This document shows positions 2,262 through 16,431 of a stretch of 64,000 bases of DNA, piece after piece. The notes under the pieces are model-generated. The model was not told the origin of the DNA and made no database searches. It saw only the letters and a program-made list of their open reading frames with translations. This DNA comes from Pempheris klunzingeri (taxonomy: Eukaryota > Chordata > Actinopteri > Acropomatiformes > Pempheridae), in NCBI RefSeq assembly GCF_042242105.1, contig NC_092034.1:4893144-4957143 (forward strand), read 5' to 3'. The position numbers and the translations under genes were made by a program. Every line of letters starts with the position of its first letter. The first letter of the stretch is position 1.

Positions 2262-2273
2262 AGTTTCATTTCA
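2262..2273 (+). promoter_or_regulatory. Interferon-stimulated response element (ISRE), copy 1
   Basis: AGTTTCATTTCA matches the consensus AGTTTCNNTTTC exactly. A further GTTTC directly upstream extends the IRF-binding repeat. It lies about 85 bp upstream of the donor of a candidate minus-strand 5'UTR exon. STAT1-STAT2-IRF9 or IRF dimers bind such sites in either orientation. Confidence 0.6.
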
Positions 2274-2540
2274 GCCAAAACAACCCCGATGGTTTCCTCC
2301 AATAGCTCCAGAAGCCATCTTACAACAACTACTGTGATTTGGTTTTCTTAAGCAAGACCTGAAAGACTTTTTGATGAGTTTACATATCATTTGATTCAAA
2401 TAAATAAGTTAAGATAATGTGTGGTGTAAACACACAGGACAAAATCAACATTCATTTCCCGGCACATGTACAAAAAGCAGTTATGGGCCATTCAGCTAGA
2501 TAGTATTACACCCTCTCATGTGTTTGTAAATAATATATCA

Positions 2541-2582
2541 TATATATATATATATATATATATATATATATATATATATATA
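2541..2582. repeat. (TA)n microsatellite
   Basis: About 21 uninterrupted TA units. A C homopolymer (2790-2802) and an A homopolymer (2891-2903) follow within 350 bp. Confidence 0.95.
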
Positions 2583-2599
2583 AAAGCACACGTGGTTTT

Positions 2600-3620
2600 A
2601 ACAGCTTGATCTCTGTCCACTGTCAGAATCATGTCTAATCTATTTATTTATTTATGATCTGAGCGGATAAAAGACTCAAGAAACAAGAAAATATATTCAT
2701 GGGTTGTCTCTTTGCCCCCCTGCCTCTACAATTGTTTCCTCTCTGTGGTGTTGAGGGTTTTTTCTTTCACTTTCAGTTCCAGAAAAAATCCCCCCCCCCC
2801 CCAATTGTTGTGTAACACAAATGTGCTGAAAATGGTCAAATCAAAATCAAAACTCACAGAAGGTTTTTTATTTAGATTTTGAGATTTCACAAAAAAAAAA
2901 AAAGTAAACAAATGATTTGTAAATAATCAGGCAATCGGTATGTAGACACACTTGATTGTTCATTTAGAATATATTCTAGGATATATTATAGGATATTACA
3001 GTAGAATAAGTTGATTTGCCCTCATCACCTTCATAATCACCACTTGTAAAGCGCATTCACATGCCTGAAGTCCACGTACAGGTCAGTTCTTGCACTTTGA
3101 ACATCCCTGAAGTCTATTGTTTTTATTCCTCAAGTTCTAAGAGGCTCCAAAGGTCATGCATTACAGTGCAACTGCAGATAAACCCACGAATGCATTTAAC
3201 TTCTGGCTCAGTGTTAGTTAAGCTGCTTGGCCCAGATCACAGAATGAGATCAAGACTTCACATTTTGGCTTAGAGCCTCAAGTTCAACCTGGTGTTACAG
3301 CATTCAGGTTTTACTTTACTGACCATAGCAACCATAGGCATTTATATTTCACTGGCAGTTGTTGGTCAGCATTTTTATCTCAGGTCTAAATCAATGCACA
3401 AGCTATTTTTTTTTTGTTTTTATTATCTTTGTTGGTGTGACGCCATTGGCAGATGTGTGGATCCACCCACTAAAGTGTTAATTTCTCCATAGCAGTACTA
3501 GCAGTCAAAAGCATTTCTTATATACAATGCTTAATGAATTTTAATGCACCCATTATTGTGTATTTAATTACACCCTCCCTACTAAGTGGAAAAAATATCT
3601 TCCGGCTAAAAAGGTTTTAT
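2600..3620. other. Intergenic stretch downstream of TRIM-A
   Basis: AT-rich with homopolymer runs. Short open frames (for example 3061-3273 and 3292-3492, plus strand) have no recognisable motif or splice context. I see no gene here. Confidence 0.5.
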
Positions 3621-3622
3621 TA

Positions 3623-3628
3623 TTTATT
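3623..3628 (-). terminator. Candidate poly(A) signal of TRIM-A
   Basis: AATAAA on the minus strand, about 175 nt after the TRIM-A stop codon. It is the first such hexamer seen downstream. Confidence 0.45.
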
Positions 3629-13480: not shown

Positions 13481-13487
13481 TGTTCGA

Positions 13488-15921
13488 CTATTCTTTACTT
13501 TGTTGGAGGAAGCGAATAAGAGAGAGGCGATATGTTTCATCTTCCACTGGCGTAATAACCAAAGGCTTTGCTTTCTTGGCCCAGCTGTACAGATAGAAAT
13601 ACGGGAACAGTTTCTCTGTGAAAGATTCTCCTGTGAAAGAGTGGATGTGCATCTTCCTATTCACATCATAGAAAGACACTCTGCCTTCCATATAGTCTAG
13701 ATACACTCCTACTTTTGTTGGCCTGGGGCACAGGTAAAGGTCAGTGTAGGGTGTACGATGAACTCTATAATCAGAACCCCTCTTTCCTATGGCAAAGAAG
13801 CCATGTCCTCTATTCAAAGTGATCCTTCCTGTTCTGGGTACTGTTTCCTTGGCAACACCAACATCCCAGTCCGTTCTCAGGCCCACTTGGACTTCCCAGT
13901 AGTGACGCCCAGAGGTGAAGCAATTCGTCCCTAAGATCATGGGACAGTCGAACTTCTCTTCATCAGACGATGAGGGGCTTGCATTTTTTAAGTACTTCAA
14001 ACGTTTCCCAAAATCATACACCACGAGGCAGCTGCCAGCAGTGGCTGGGTCAAAGGTGACTGACTCTGAGAAGAAGAAAAAAAGTTATCCTAAAGCTTTT
14101 ATCTTTAGTCTTAATAAGTGAATTTAATGAGCAAGAAAAATCATTTAAATCTCACCTTTATATTGTCTCATTCTGGTCAGTTCTGTGAGAGGTGAAAACA
14201 CAACACAGTTAGGAGAAACTCTTCAAATAGCGACATCTTTGCTGAAACGTAGCATATATTTACCCGCGTCTGTCAGAGTTTTCAGTTCTGCTTGAAATGT
14301 GTGTACAAGATGACACATGGCTCTCCTCACCGTCTGCACACACAGGTCTGAGTAAACCCTGATGTTTGACCAGCTCTTGGTGCCTGAAATGGTGCTCAGC
14401 GCCTGCAAAGTCTGATGATTCACAAACACATGACCACTGCTGGTACTGGGGTATATTCAGTCTTTTTATACAGCTAACCATCTGCACCCAAGCAGACATT
14501 TTCATGTAGACATGTGTCTTGACACACTCACTGTCTTCTTAAATAGATAATTACACATTTTGGGGAATAAGTTTACTTGCTTTACTGTCTAGCCAAGTTG
14601 TAGTACTTGACATACACAGGTTGCTACAAAGGTTTTGCACTCAGCAGAGCAGAAAAAAGAAGGGAAAAACATGCATTAACTTGCATTGTTTTTTGCAGAT
14701 TTCTTGAAGATTCAGTTCAAATTTCCGTTACATCTGACTGGAAATTTGACTACTGATATGTATGGTCTTTGTGTACATTTTCATTAAGTGCATCTCATTT
14801 CTCTTGTTCATATACCTTCAGCCGAATAGTGTTAGTGTTGACTGACCTGCAGGAGGTGAAGGTGGTCGTCACTTTGTGAAAGCTCCTCCAGCTCAGAGTG
14901 CTTCCTCTGCAGTTGGGTGATTTCCTCCTGCAGCTCTTTAATCGTCGCTTCGTCTTTGTCTTGTGATTTTCTGATCTTCTGCTCGATGTTGCATTTCAGT
15001 TTAGTTTGTGCCTCTTGCACATGATTCATCAGAGTATTGAAGAGTTTATCACTGTCTTCAATCTCTTTATTTGCTTTGTTCTAATAGAAAAATTCAATTA
15101 GATCAATTGCACAGATATATATTTAAGTGCGAAATGTTCCCCAGTACTCACTGTGCTTATTTGAGAAGAGTCTCTGAATTCCTTTATCTTTTCCATTCTG
15201 CTCTCAATCATTATTTTGATCTCTCCTTTCTTAGACTCAATATTTTCCTACAATAAAGAATTTCAAGAAAAAAGTGGTTAAGCCAGTGAATCATTTTTTT
15301 AAGTTTCAGTTTACAATCAAAGTAATTTAACAAAATAAACTCTCTTACTTTCTGTTGAACCCCTTCTTCTTCAACGGGCACCTTTTCATGGTCTTTGTGG
15401 TCTGTCTCACTGCACACCAGACAGATGCACACCTGATCATCCCTGCAGAAAAGCTCCAGGATCTTCTCATGCTTCTTACACATCCTCTCTTCCAGGTTCT
15501 CCACCGGGTCGATCAGCTTGTGTCTCACCAGGGAGGGAACTCTCTGGTGAGGCTCCAGGTGGGCTTCACAGAACGACGTCAGACACACCAGGCAGGACTT
15601 AAGGGCCTTGAACTTTGTTTCAGTGCACACATCGCATGTCACCTTCCACGCTGCGCTTTCAGGTGTCCTGACTTTTCTCCTCTTTATTTGGACTGAAATC
15701 TCCTCGATGACCGTGTTTGTGGAGATATCAGGCCTCACACAGAATCTTTTATTACACACGGGGCAGTGGCATAAATCACTTTTGTCCCAGTGCTCACTGA
15801 GGCAGGTCTTGCAAAAGCTGTGACCACAAGGTGTGGTGACGGGGTCGCTGAAGACGTTCACACAGATCGAACACTGGAAATTACTCTCGGGCAATGAAGC
15901 AAAGACACTGAATGATGACAT
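13488..15921 (-). CDS. TRIM-C: btr/TRIM39-like RING-B-box-coiled coil-PRY/SPRY E3 ligase
   Basis: Coding exons: 15349-15921, 15152-15247 (96 nt), 14847-15080 (234), 14264-14411 (148), 14156-14182 (27) and 13488-14065. Borders are GT-AG and phases agree; the product is about 551 aa. The RING spans residues 17-56 (CSICVNVF, CGHSFC, CPVC). B-box 1 starts at 96 (CDVCTETK) and B-box 2 at 148 (CKKH to HKDH), all ligands intact. A long coiled coil follows, then PRY/SPRY with FDP, YWEVQV, DVGVAKE, VGVYLDYMEG and VSFYDV. The C-terminus has a tail of about 15 residues beyond ITPVED. A non-coding first exon (about 16242-16390) carries a consensus donor, and an ISRE lies just upstream. Likely a cytosolic ubiquitin ligase; the target is unknown. 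Confidence 0.92.
14545..14615. repeat. Small fragment of the 7680/16615 repeat family
   Basis: 'ttttggggaataagtttact' resembles the 'tgggaaatacgcttattcgc' block of that family. It lies in a TRIM-C intron. Confidence 0.35.
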
Positions 15922-16241
15922 TATGGAAACTCTGTGGGAGAAAATGTGATTTATTTACTTTGTATATGTTCTTTCAGGTTTTTTAAATCATGTGTGACAT
16001 GACAACCATCATTATACCGAACATAAACACAAAAACTAGGGGAAAAAGAGCCAAAATGTTAGAGAAGTCTTTGGAATCAAGTCTATTTTTAGGCTGTTTA
16101 CAATGCTAATCCTGACCCGCCCGATGAGTCATATTCATGTGAGTCAGCTTGCACATCTTAATAATGCATAACTTACTTACAGCTCTGTATTTTAAATGCA
16201 AAAACAGAAAAACAACCAAATTAGTTGGAGGAATGACTCAC

Positions 16242-16390
16242 CTGACTCTCCGTAGGTCTTATGGAAATTGAACTAATCTGCCTAAACTGTCTGTTAAATG
16301 CAAGACCGTACGCAGTAATCATCGCACCACAAACACTTCAACAATGATCATCTGAAGACGAGTCCTGAGAAGCTGAGGCAGCTCCAGACA
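16242..16390 (-). other. 5'UTR exon of TRIM-C (candidate)
   Basis: A consensus donor (AGTCAG|GTGAGT, GT at 16240-16241) lies downstream of the ISRE. The coding exon has a good acceptor (CTCCCACAG) about 10 nt before the ATG. The transcription start is not defined by sequence alone. Confidence 0.55.
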
Positions 16391-16415
16391 CTTTAGTAGG
16401 TGTGGTCAGTTCACT

Positions 16416-16431
16416 GAAATGAAACTGAAAA
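16416..16431 (+). promoter_or_regulatory. ISRE, copy 3 (TRIM-C promoter)
   Basis: GAAATGAAACTGAAAA is a perfect ISRE (the reverse strand reads AGTTTCATTTC) with a third GAAA repeat. It lies about 175 bp upstream of the first-exon donor of TRIM-C and about 500 bp upstream of its ATG. Confidence 0.75.

Follow-up and report, generated by a model that had tools for sequence, protein, structure and literature searches.

Which members of a fish TRIM cluster are under interferon control, and through which promoter element, is the question raised by a 64-kb stretch of the Pempheris klunzingeri genome (C23:4893144-4957143 of 646 Mb; hereafter the window). A preliminary description of this stretch, whose gene names we keep (TRIM-A to TRIM-E and the CxCGW gene), had placed a perfect interferon-stimulated response element (ISRE) beside the leader exons of the CxCGW gene, TRIM-A and TRIM-C. 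On the evidence set out below we consider it likely that a longer string, GAAATGAAACTGAAA, in the promoters of the CxCGW gene and TRIM-C is an ISRE in the broad sense and makes these two genes inducible by interferon or interferon regulatory factors (IRFs), with TRIM-A responding weakly or not at all and TRIM-B, TRIM-D and TRIM-E being regulated otherwise.

The strings at the three leader exons

Exact copies of the putative perfect ISRE, AGTTTCNNTTTC, had been placed at 2262, 7114 and 16416, and the window holds none on either strand (shuffle mean 0.38). The string found at these coordinates is AGTTTCATTTC, which has 11 letters and one spacer base rather than two, and is not a canonical ISRE. 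The clustering of its three copies in the window is nevertheless real: dinucleotide shuffles contain 0.09 copies on average, none of 200 reaches three, and the genome count predicts 0.122 per 64 kb (Poisson P(>=3) 2.8e-4). Because the genome carries 1232 copies (618 + 614) versus 1131 of the same string read backward, the 11-mer is hardly enriched genome-wide, and we rejected it as a genome-wide marker.

The full consensus, GAAANNGAAACT (12 letters, 10 of them fixed), likewise has no exact match in the window. Within 400 bp upstream it scores at best 9 of the 10 fixed letters for the CxCGW gene, 9 for TRIM-A (at 7361, not 7114), 8 for TRIM-C, 8 for TRIM-D and 7 for TRIM-E, so that "perfect" is wrong for all three elements, and used as a strict discriminator the consensus singles out none of the five genes. 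The names ISRE, IRF consensus and gamma-activated site (GAS) are what we take to be the appropriate labels for these strings. The spacing reported earlier, 80-175 bp from the leader donor, was borne out: measured between the final base of the leader exon and the nearer edge of the element, the distance is 79 bp for the CxCGW gene, 101 bp for TRIM-A and 174 bp for TRIM-C.

An element common to the CxCGW gene and TRIM-C

Two of the three 11-mers sit inside a 15-mer, TTTCAGTTTCATTTC (2258-2272, plus strand; 16416-16430, minus strand), which holds the GAAANNGAAA core and has a shuffle mean of 0.005 in the window. The identity extends to a 17-mer, CTGAAATGAAACTGAAA, found at 2258-2274 and 16414-16430 in opposite orientation relative to the genes, and this 17-mer includes GAAACTGAAA, that is, the canonical IRF/ISRE core GAAANNGAAA. 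The core is present at the CxCGW gene (2258 and 2765) and at TRIM-C (16421), and absent from the upstream stretches examined for TRIM-A, TRIM-B, TRIM-D and TRIM-E.

Leader exons were assessed independently of any motif by scoring every GT between a coding exon and the upstream gene with a simple donor matrix of assumed weights. The donors assigned to the CxCGW gene, TRIM-C and TRIM-D each rank first in their interval and that of TRIM-A ranks sixth (Table 1); no donor stands out for TRIM-E under the same matrix. Both 15-mers lie less than 190 bp upstream of the best-scoring donor of the whole interval, and the 250-bp stretches above the five top donors, 1250 of 64000 bp, contain both of them, a coincidence of about 4e-4 by hand arithmetic. 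The TRIM-A 11-mer falls outside the 250 bp upstream of the top donor of its interval (7803).

The 15-mer across the genome

The 646-Mb genome contains 37 copies of TTTCAGTTTCATTTC (19 + 18), two of them in the window, and 16 (11 + 5) of the string read backward. From the 35 copies outside the window, the Poisson probability of at least two in 64 kb is 6e-6, an optimistic value because the 15-mer was chosen only after being seen. We judged the neighbours of these 35 copies by eye from the open frames in 3-kb or 10-kb stretches. One copy stands upstream of a ZAP/PARP12-like gene, 92 bp from the start codon; the N terminus of this gene matches Pfam WH_PARP12 at 4.5e-16 and PDB chains of ZAP at a weak 1.3e-4. 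Another lies 701 bp upstream of the start codon of an ISG15-like gene, which has two ubiquitin domains, ends in LRGG and finds its best PDB matches in polyubiquitin chains; both identities rest on these Pfam and PDB matches. ISG15-like and ZAP/PARP12-like genes are interferon-stimulated. Four further copies stand in a tandem array of PYRIN genes on C22, at 1164, 889, 2467 and 1224 bp upstream of start codons, the Pfam PYRIN assignment having been tested for two of the array frames. This array (G000:C22:1273463-1322395; L035, L036, L046-L048) adjoins frames that by eye resemble histones H3 and H2B.

Taken together, the identical 17-mer, the top-ranking donors and the neighbours of other 15-mer copies support an interferon-type element beside the leader of the CxCGW gene and of TRIM-C, whereas the claim as made fails for TRIM-A, which lacks GAAANNGAAA and whose donor is only sixth of 172. 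The extended string also offers a way to search this genome for candidate interferon-stimulated genes.

Such a string might have been delivered by an ISRE-scattering transposable element, as known in mammals; interferon-inducible transposon enhancers are described in the accessible text of PMC10229128 and PMC9446614. The 300-bp flanks of the 37 copies, compared all against all, are mutually unrelated except for the four copies in the PYRIN array, so that no mobile element appears to carry the 15-mer; this comparison largely refutes a transposon origin, which we rejected as very improbable.

Several observations count against a regulatory role for the element. Scored on the plain consensus, TRIM-C attains 8 of 10, a value equalled or exceeded in 51.6% of 400-bp windows, and the CxCGW gene attains 9, equalled or exceeded in 8.8%; such scores speak against identifying TRIM-C as an ISRE from the consensus alone. 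The 16 reversed copies suggest that about half of the 15-mer copies may be chance; the neighbour survey covered copies of the true string. The four PYRIN copies count as one event because they are recent duplicates. In the stretches surrounding 29 of the 35 outside copies, inspection by eye revealed no interferon-type gene; the neighbours include an OST-HTH gene at one of the 29 and a RING gene at another. The 15-mer of the ISG15-like gene is distal and additional, standing 579 bp above a leader donor that has an ISRE closer to it. The palindrome TTCNNNGAA, which overlaps the TRIM-C element, is common, with 19 occurrences in the window.

The shared strings could alternatively be products of chance or of a bias toward A/T-rich GAAA words, with no regulatory meaning. 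This would fit the 13 occurrences of GAAANNGAAA alone in the window, several of them within low-complexity or coding DNA, the ordinary consensus scores, and an 11-mer about as common as its reverse. It sits poorly with a 17-letter identity at two leader exons, with the best donors beneath both elements, with ZAP/PARP12-like and ISG15-like genes among the neighbours of other copies, and with the absence of the 15-mer from the upstream stretches of 12 other TRIM genes, and we regard it as distinctly improbable.

TRIM-A and the question of an ancestral promoter

The view taken in the preliminary description can be repaired by supposing that all three elements, that of TRIM-A included, are working ISREs that derive from one ancestral promoter and were retained after tandem duplication. 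The CxCGW gene and TRIM-A are sister genes by their PRY-SPRY exons (135 of 181 residues identical, 74.6%; synonymous divergence, dS, 0.56 to 0.73), 13 of 14 letters agree around their elements, and their leader regions show a weak similarity, with a score that 12 of 500 shuffles reach. With the element masked, however, 39 of 500 shuffles reach the leader score; TRIM-A lacks GAAANNGAAA, the 1000 bp above its leader donor being free of the core; and the TRIM-C element is oppositely oriented, in a leader region that on the gene strand resembles neither that of the CxCGW gene nor that of TRIM-A (256 and 338 of 500 shuffles reach the score). An ancestral promoter for all three is in our judgment unlikely. 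A common promoter for TRIM-C and the CxCGW gene was rejected by the same leader comparison, made on the gene strand, and independent placement appears the better reading of their shared element than shared descent. A MAFFT alignment of the three promoters led nowhere.

A fish ISRE definition that includes flanking letters, (G/A/T)GAAANNGAAA(G/C)(A/T/C), given in the accessible text of PMC4514678, has five matches in the window: 2256 and 2763 on the CxCGW side, and 1172, 20179 and 20185 elsewhere. TRIM-C and TRIM-A fail it, so that of the three genes only the CxCGW gene fits, and it does so twice.

Near TRIM-A there is also a TTCNNNGAA palindrome, weak evidence because the window has 19 of them. 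A longer form, TTTCAGTGAA, occurs four times in the window, where shuffles average 0.58 (a single one of 200 gets to four), and two of the four are at TRIM-A and TRIM-C.

Distribution among TRIM paralogs

Class IV TRIM proteins combine RING, B-box, coiled coil and PRY-SPRY. Pfam RING and PRY/SPRY domains were found for TRIM-A, TRIM-C, TRIM-D and TRIM-E, and the CxCGW gene has PRY-SPRY. TRIM-D and TRIM-E had been described as lacking an element, and indeed neither they nor TRIM-B have one within 1.5 kb of the coding exon. Outside the window, the TRIM-C RING/B-box query gave at least 154 genome matches (150 of 307 first-look candidates were scored), many of them in frames of about 560 aa that resemble intronless copies. 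From part of the short-frame matches we chose 12 paralogs outside the cluster with open frames of 204-286 aa, which were assumed to bear introns. Their 1.5-kb upstream stretches contain the 15-mer in 0 of 12, the 11-mer in 0 of 12 and the GAAANNGAAA core in 1 of 12, a reach that would miss a site as distant as that of the CxCGW gene, 1.79 kb from its start codon. The closest paralog among the matches listed, at C23:4571364 (57% identity), has none of these elements in its 1.5 kb upstream, and inspection by eye placed no further copy of the 15-mer, out of 35, within 60 kb of a TRIM place among those matches. Because the 12 sampled paralogs and TRIM-B, TRIM-D and TRIM-E are without the 15-mer in the 1.5 kb examined, the element marks single paralogs; as a family-wide TRIM feature it was rejected.

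Large arrays of stop-free TRIM frames, each about 530-610 aa long, were seen at C3:1.44-1.81 Mb, C7:1.87-1.91 Mb, C8:1.0-2.2 Mb, C4:3.53-3.55 Mb and C23:2.06-2.08 Mb, and are probably intronless copies.

Proposed regulation and comparison with known promoters

From the observed sequences, their rarity, the leader donors and the genomic neighbours of the 15-mer we infer protein binding, transcription starts and induction as follows. GAAATGAAACTGAAA would offer interferon regulatory factors (IRF9 within ISGF3, or IRF1/3/7/8) a double GAAA site, extended by a third GAAA half-site. The element stands directly upstream of a putative non-coding first exon, where IRF/STAT complexes, once virus is sensed or interferon acts, would bind it and raise transcription of the CxCGW gene and TRIM-C; STAT might also occupy the overlapping palindrome of TRIM-C. 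These two genes are thus probably inducible by interferon or IRFs. TRIM-A carries a shortened form with one GAAA unit fewer and may show a weak response or none, and its inducibility is uncertain. TRIM-B, TRIM-D and TRIM-E, with no element near, would be constitutive or regulated otherwise, and TRIM-D and TRIM-E are probably not interferon-inducible. A promoter element that separates paralogs in this way permits prediction gene by gene.

The same genome offers a control. Its ISG15-like gene carries GAAACTGAAAGT at 196 bp above the leader donor, a TATA box between the two, a 109-bp first intron and a start codon 13 nt past the acceptor. This is the layout of TRIM-C, where the element is 174 bp from the donor and the start codon 10 nt from the acceptor; the ISG15-like gene differs in its distal 15-mer and in probably relying mainly on the ISRE closer by. 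Upstream of the ZAP/PARP12-like gene the promoter has the same 15-mer, its distance being measured to the start codon instead of to a leader exon.

The ISRE of fish interferon-stimulated genes, as given in the accessible text of PMC4514678 and, for GAAANNGAAA, of PMC7177527, is like the CxCGW and TRIM-C elements in its double GAAA, two-base spacer and, as far as the putative leader exons indicate, promoter position. The elements in the window differ in the third GAAA unit with its one-base spacer; in addition, TRIM-C fails the flanking letters and TRIM-A is without the core. Human TRIM22 has an extended ISRE with extra upstream bases that binds IRF1, according to the available part of PMC3356915; the likeness, between genes that are not orthologous, is that of a TRIM gene with an ISRE and of interferon control at the level of the paralog. 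Teleost class IV TRIM expansions, finTRIM and btr (PMC2657112, PMC3137616 and PMC5445110, each in its accessible text), share the RING/B-box and PRY-SPRY exons and the tandem clustering, and the CxCGW gene differs from them by another N-terminal finger. Most finTRIMs are inducible and ftr82 and ftr83 are not, as stated in the accessible part of PMC5445110; for salmon, the accessible text of a review (PMC13030082) reports paralogue-specific ISRE enrichment. The words "ISRE" and "promoter" are absent from the main text of the finTRIM paper PMC2657112, and our searches of open-access papers turned up no account of the present promoters.

Origin of the CxCGW gene

Beyond the left edge of the window the CxCGW gene continues as far as a PRY-SPRY exon, at window coordinates -7014..-6448. 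Its coding exon has no Pfam match, leaving the finger without a Pfam name, and the matches listed for the TRIM-C RING/B-box query include none in the 20 kb left of the window; the gene appears to be an old tandem sister of TRIM-A that bears a different N-terminal finger. Elsewhere in the genome this finger is matched only once (54% over 28 residues, E 8.5e-4, at L003:1423-1755, plus strand), in a frame that directly precedes a weak reverse-transcriptase match (RVT_1, E 8.4e-5, below the Pfam cut-off), and it may come from a retroelement. An exon-bearing segment inside the gene is tandemly repeated, with copies 90-98% identical (L005:7026-9692, window about -2974 to -308).

One may speculate, and we hold this scenario to be doubtful, that single members of this old TRIM cluster came under interferon control separately: the CxCGW gene and TRIM-C would have acquired the triple-GAAA element independently, given its opposite orientation and unrelated flanks, and the CxCGW finger would have replaced a RING/B-box exon. 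Were this so, the CxCGW gene, induced alongside catalytic TRIMs, could act as a decoy or adaptor for the target of its sister TRIM-A's PRY-SPRY domain.

Other features of the window

Table 1. Elements and exons of the CxCGW gene, TRIM-A, TRIM-C and TRIM-D, in window coordinates
Feature	Position	Strand	Remarks
AGTTTCATTTC copy	2262-2272	+	
AGTTTCATTTC copy	7114-7124	+	
AGTTTCATTTC copy	16416-16426	-	
CxCGW promoter element	2256..2274	-	gene strand CTGAAATGAAACTGAAACA; 17-mer common to TRIM-C at 2258-2274; fish ISRE definition at 2256-2268
Second ISRE-definition match, TGAAAGTGAAAGA	2763..2775	-	about 585 bp upstream of CxCGW leader donor; also TRIM-A 3' flank
CxCGW leader exon, approximate	2179..2255	-	donor AAG/GTAAGC after 2179, 1st of 193 GTs
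CxCGW coding exon	313..480	-	start codon 480-478; splice acceptor 505-504
TRIM-C promoter element	16414..16430	-	gene strand TTTCAGTTTCATTTCAG; CxCGW 17-mer in other orientation
TTCNNNGAA palindrome overlapping TRIM-C element	16410..16418		TTTCAGTTTCATTTCAGTGAA
TRIM-C leader exon, approximate	16242..16400	-	donor CAG/GTGAGT after 16242, 1st of 76 GTs
TRIM-C RING/B-box exon	15348..15921	-	start codon 15921-15919, 10 nt past splice acceptor
TRIM-C PRY-SPRY exon	13488..14084	-	
TRIM-A element	7111..7124	-	gene strand GAAATGAAACTTAA; one-base spacer, no GAAANNGAAA core
TTCNNNGAA palindrome near TRIM-A	7153..7161		inside CTTTCAGTGAAAG
TRIM-A leader exon, approximate, doubtful	7013..7100	-	donor AAG/GTAACA after 7013, 6th of 172
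TRIM-A RING/B-box exon	5710..6297	-	start codon 6297-6295
TRIM-A PRY-SPRY exon	3802..4374	-	
TRIM-D leader exon, approximate	21716..21780	-	donor 1st of 165; no GAAANNGAAA core within 1000 bp upstream

TRIM-B (9428-10246 and 8400-8650, minus strand) has RING and B-box together with an exon resembling a coiled coil, but the TRIM-D query met no SPRY match in the interval separating it from TRIM-A; TRIM-B may be truncated. Between TRIM-B and TRIM-C, at 10605-11258 on the minus strand, stands a 217-aa frame in a single exon. Its C-terminal tail is hydrophobic, and no Pfam family clears the cut-off. A frame at 50577-50861 (minus strand), without a Pfam match, presumably resembles the C terminus of PCP4/PCP4L1 and is a possible synteny marker. 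A degenerate TRIM remnant lies at 36604-36949 (minus strand), with a partial RING match and a weak B-box match in another frame.

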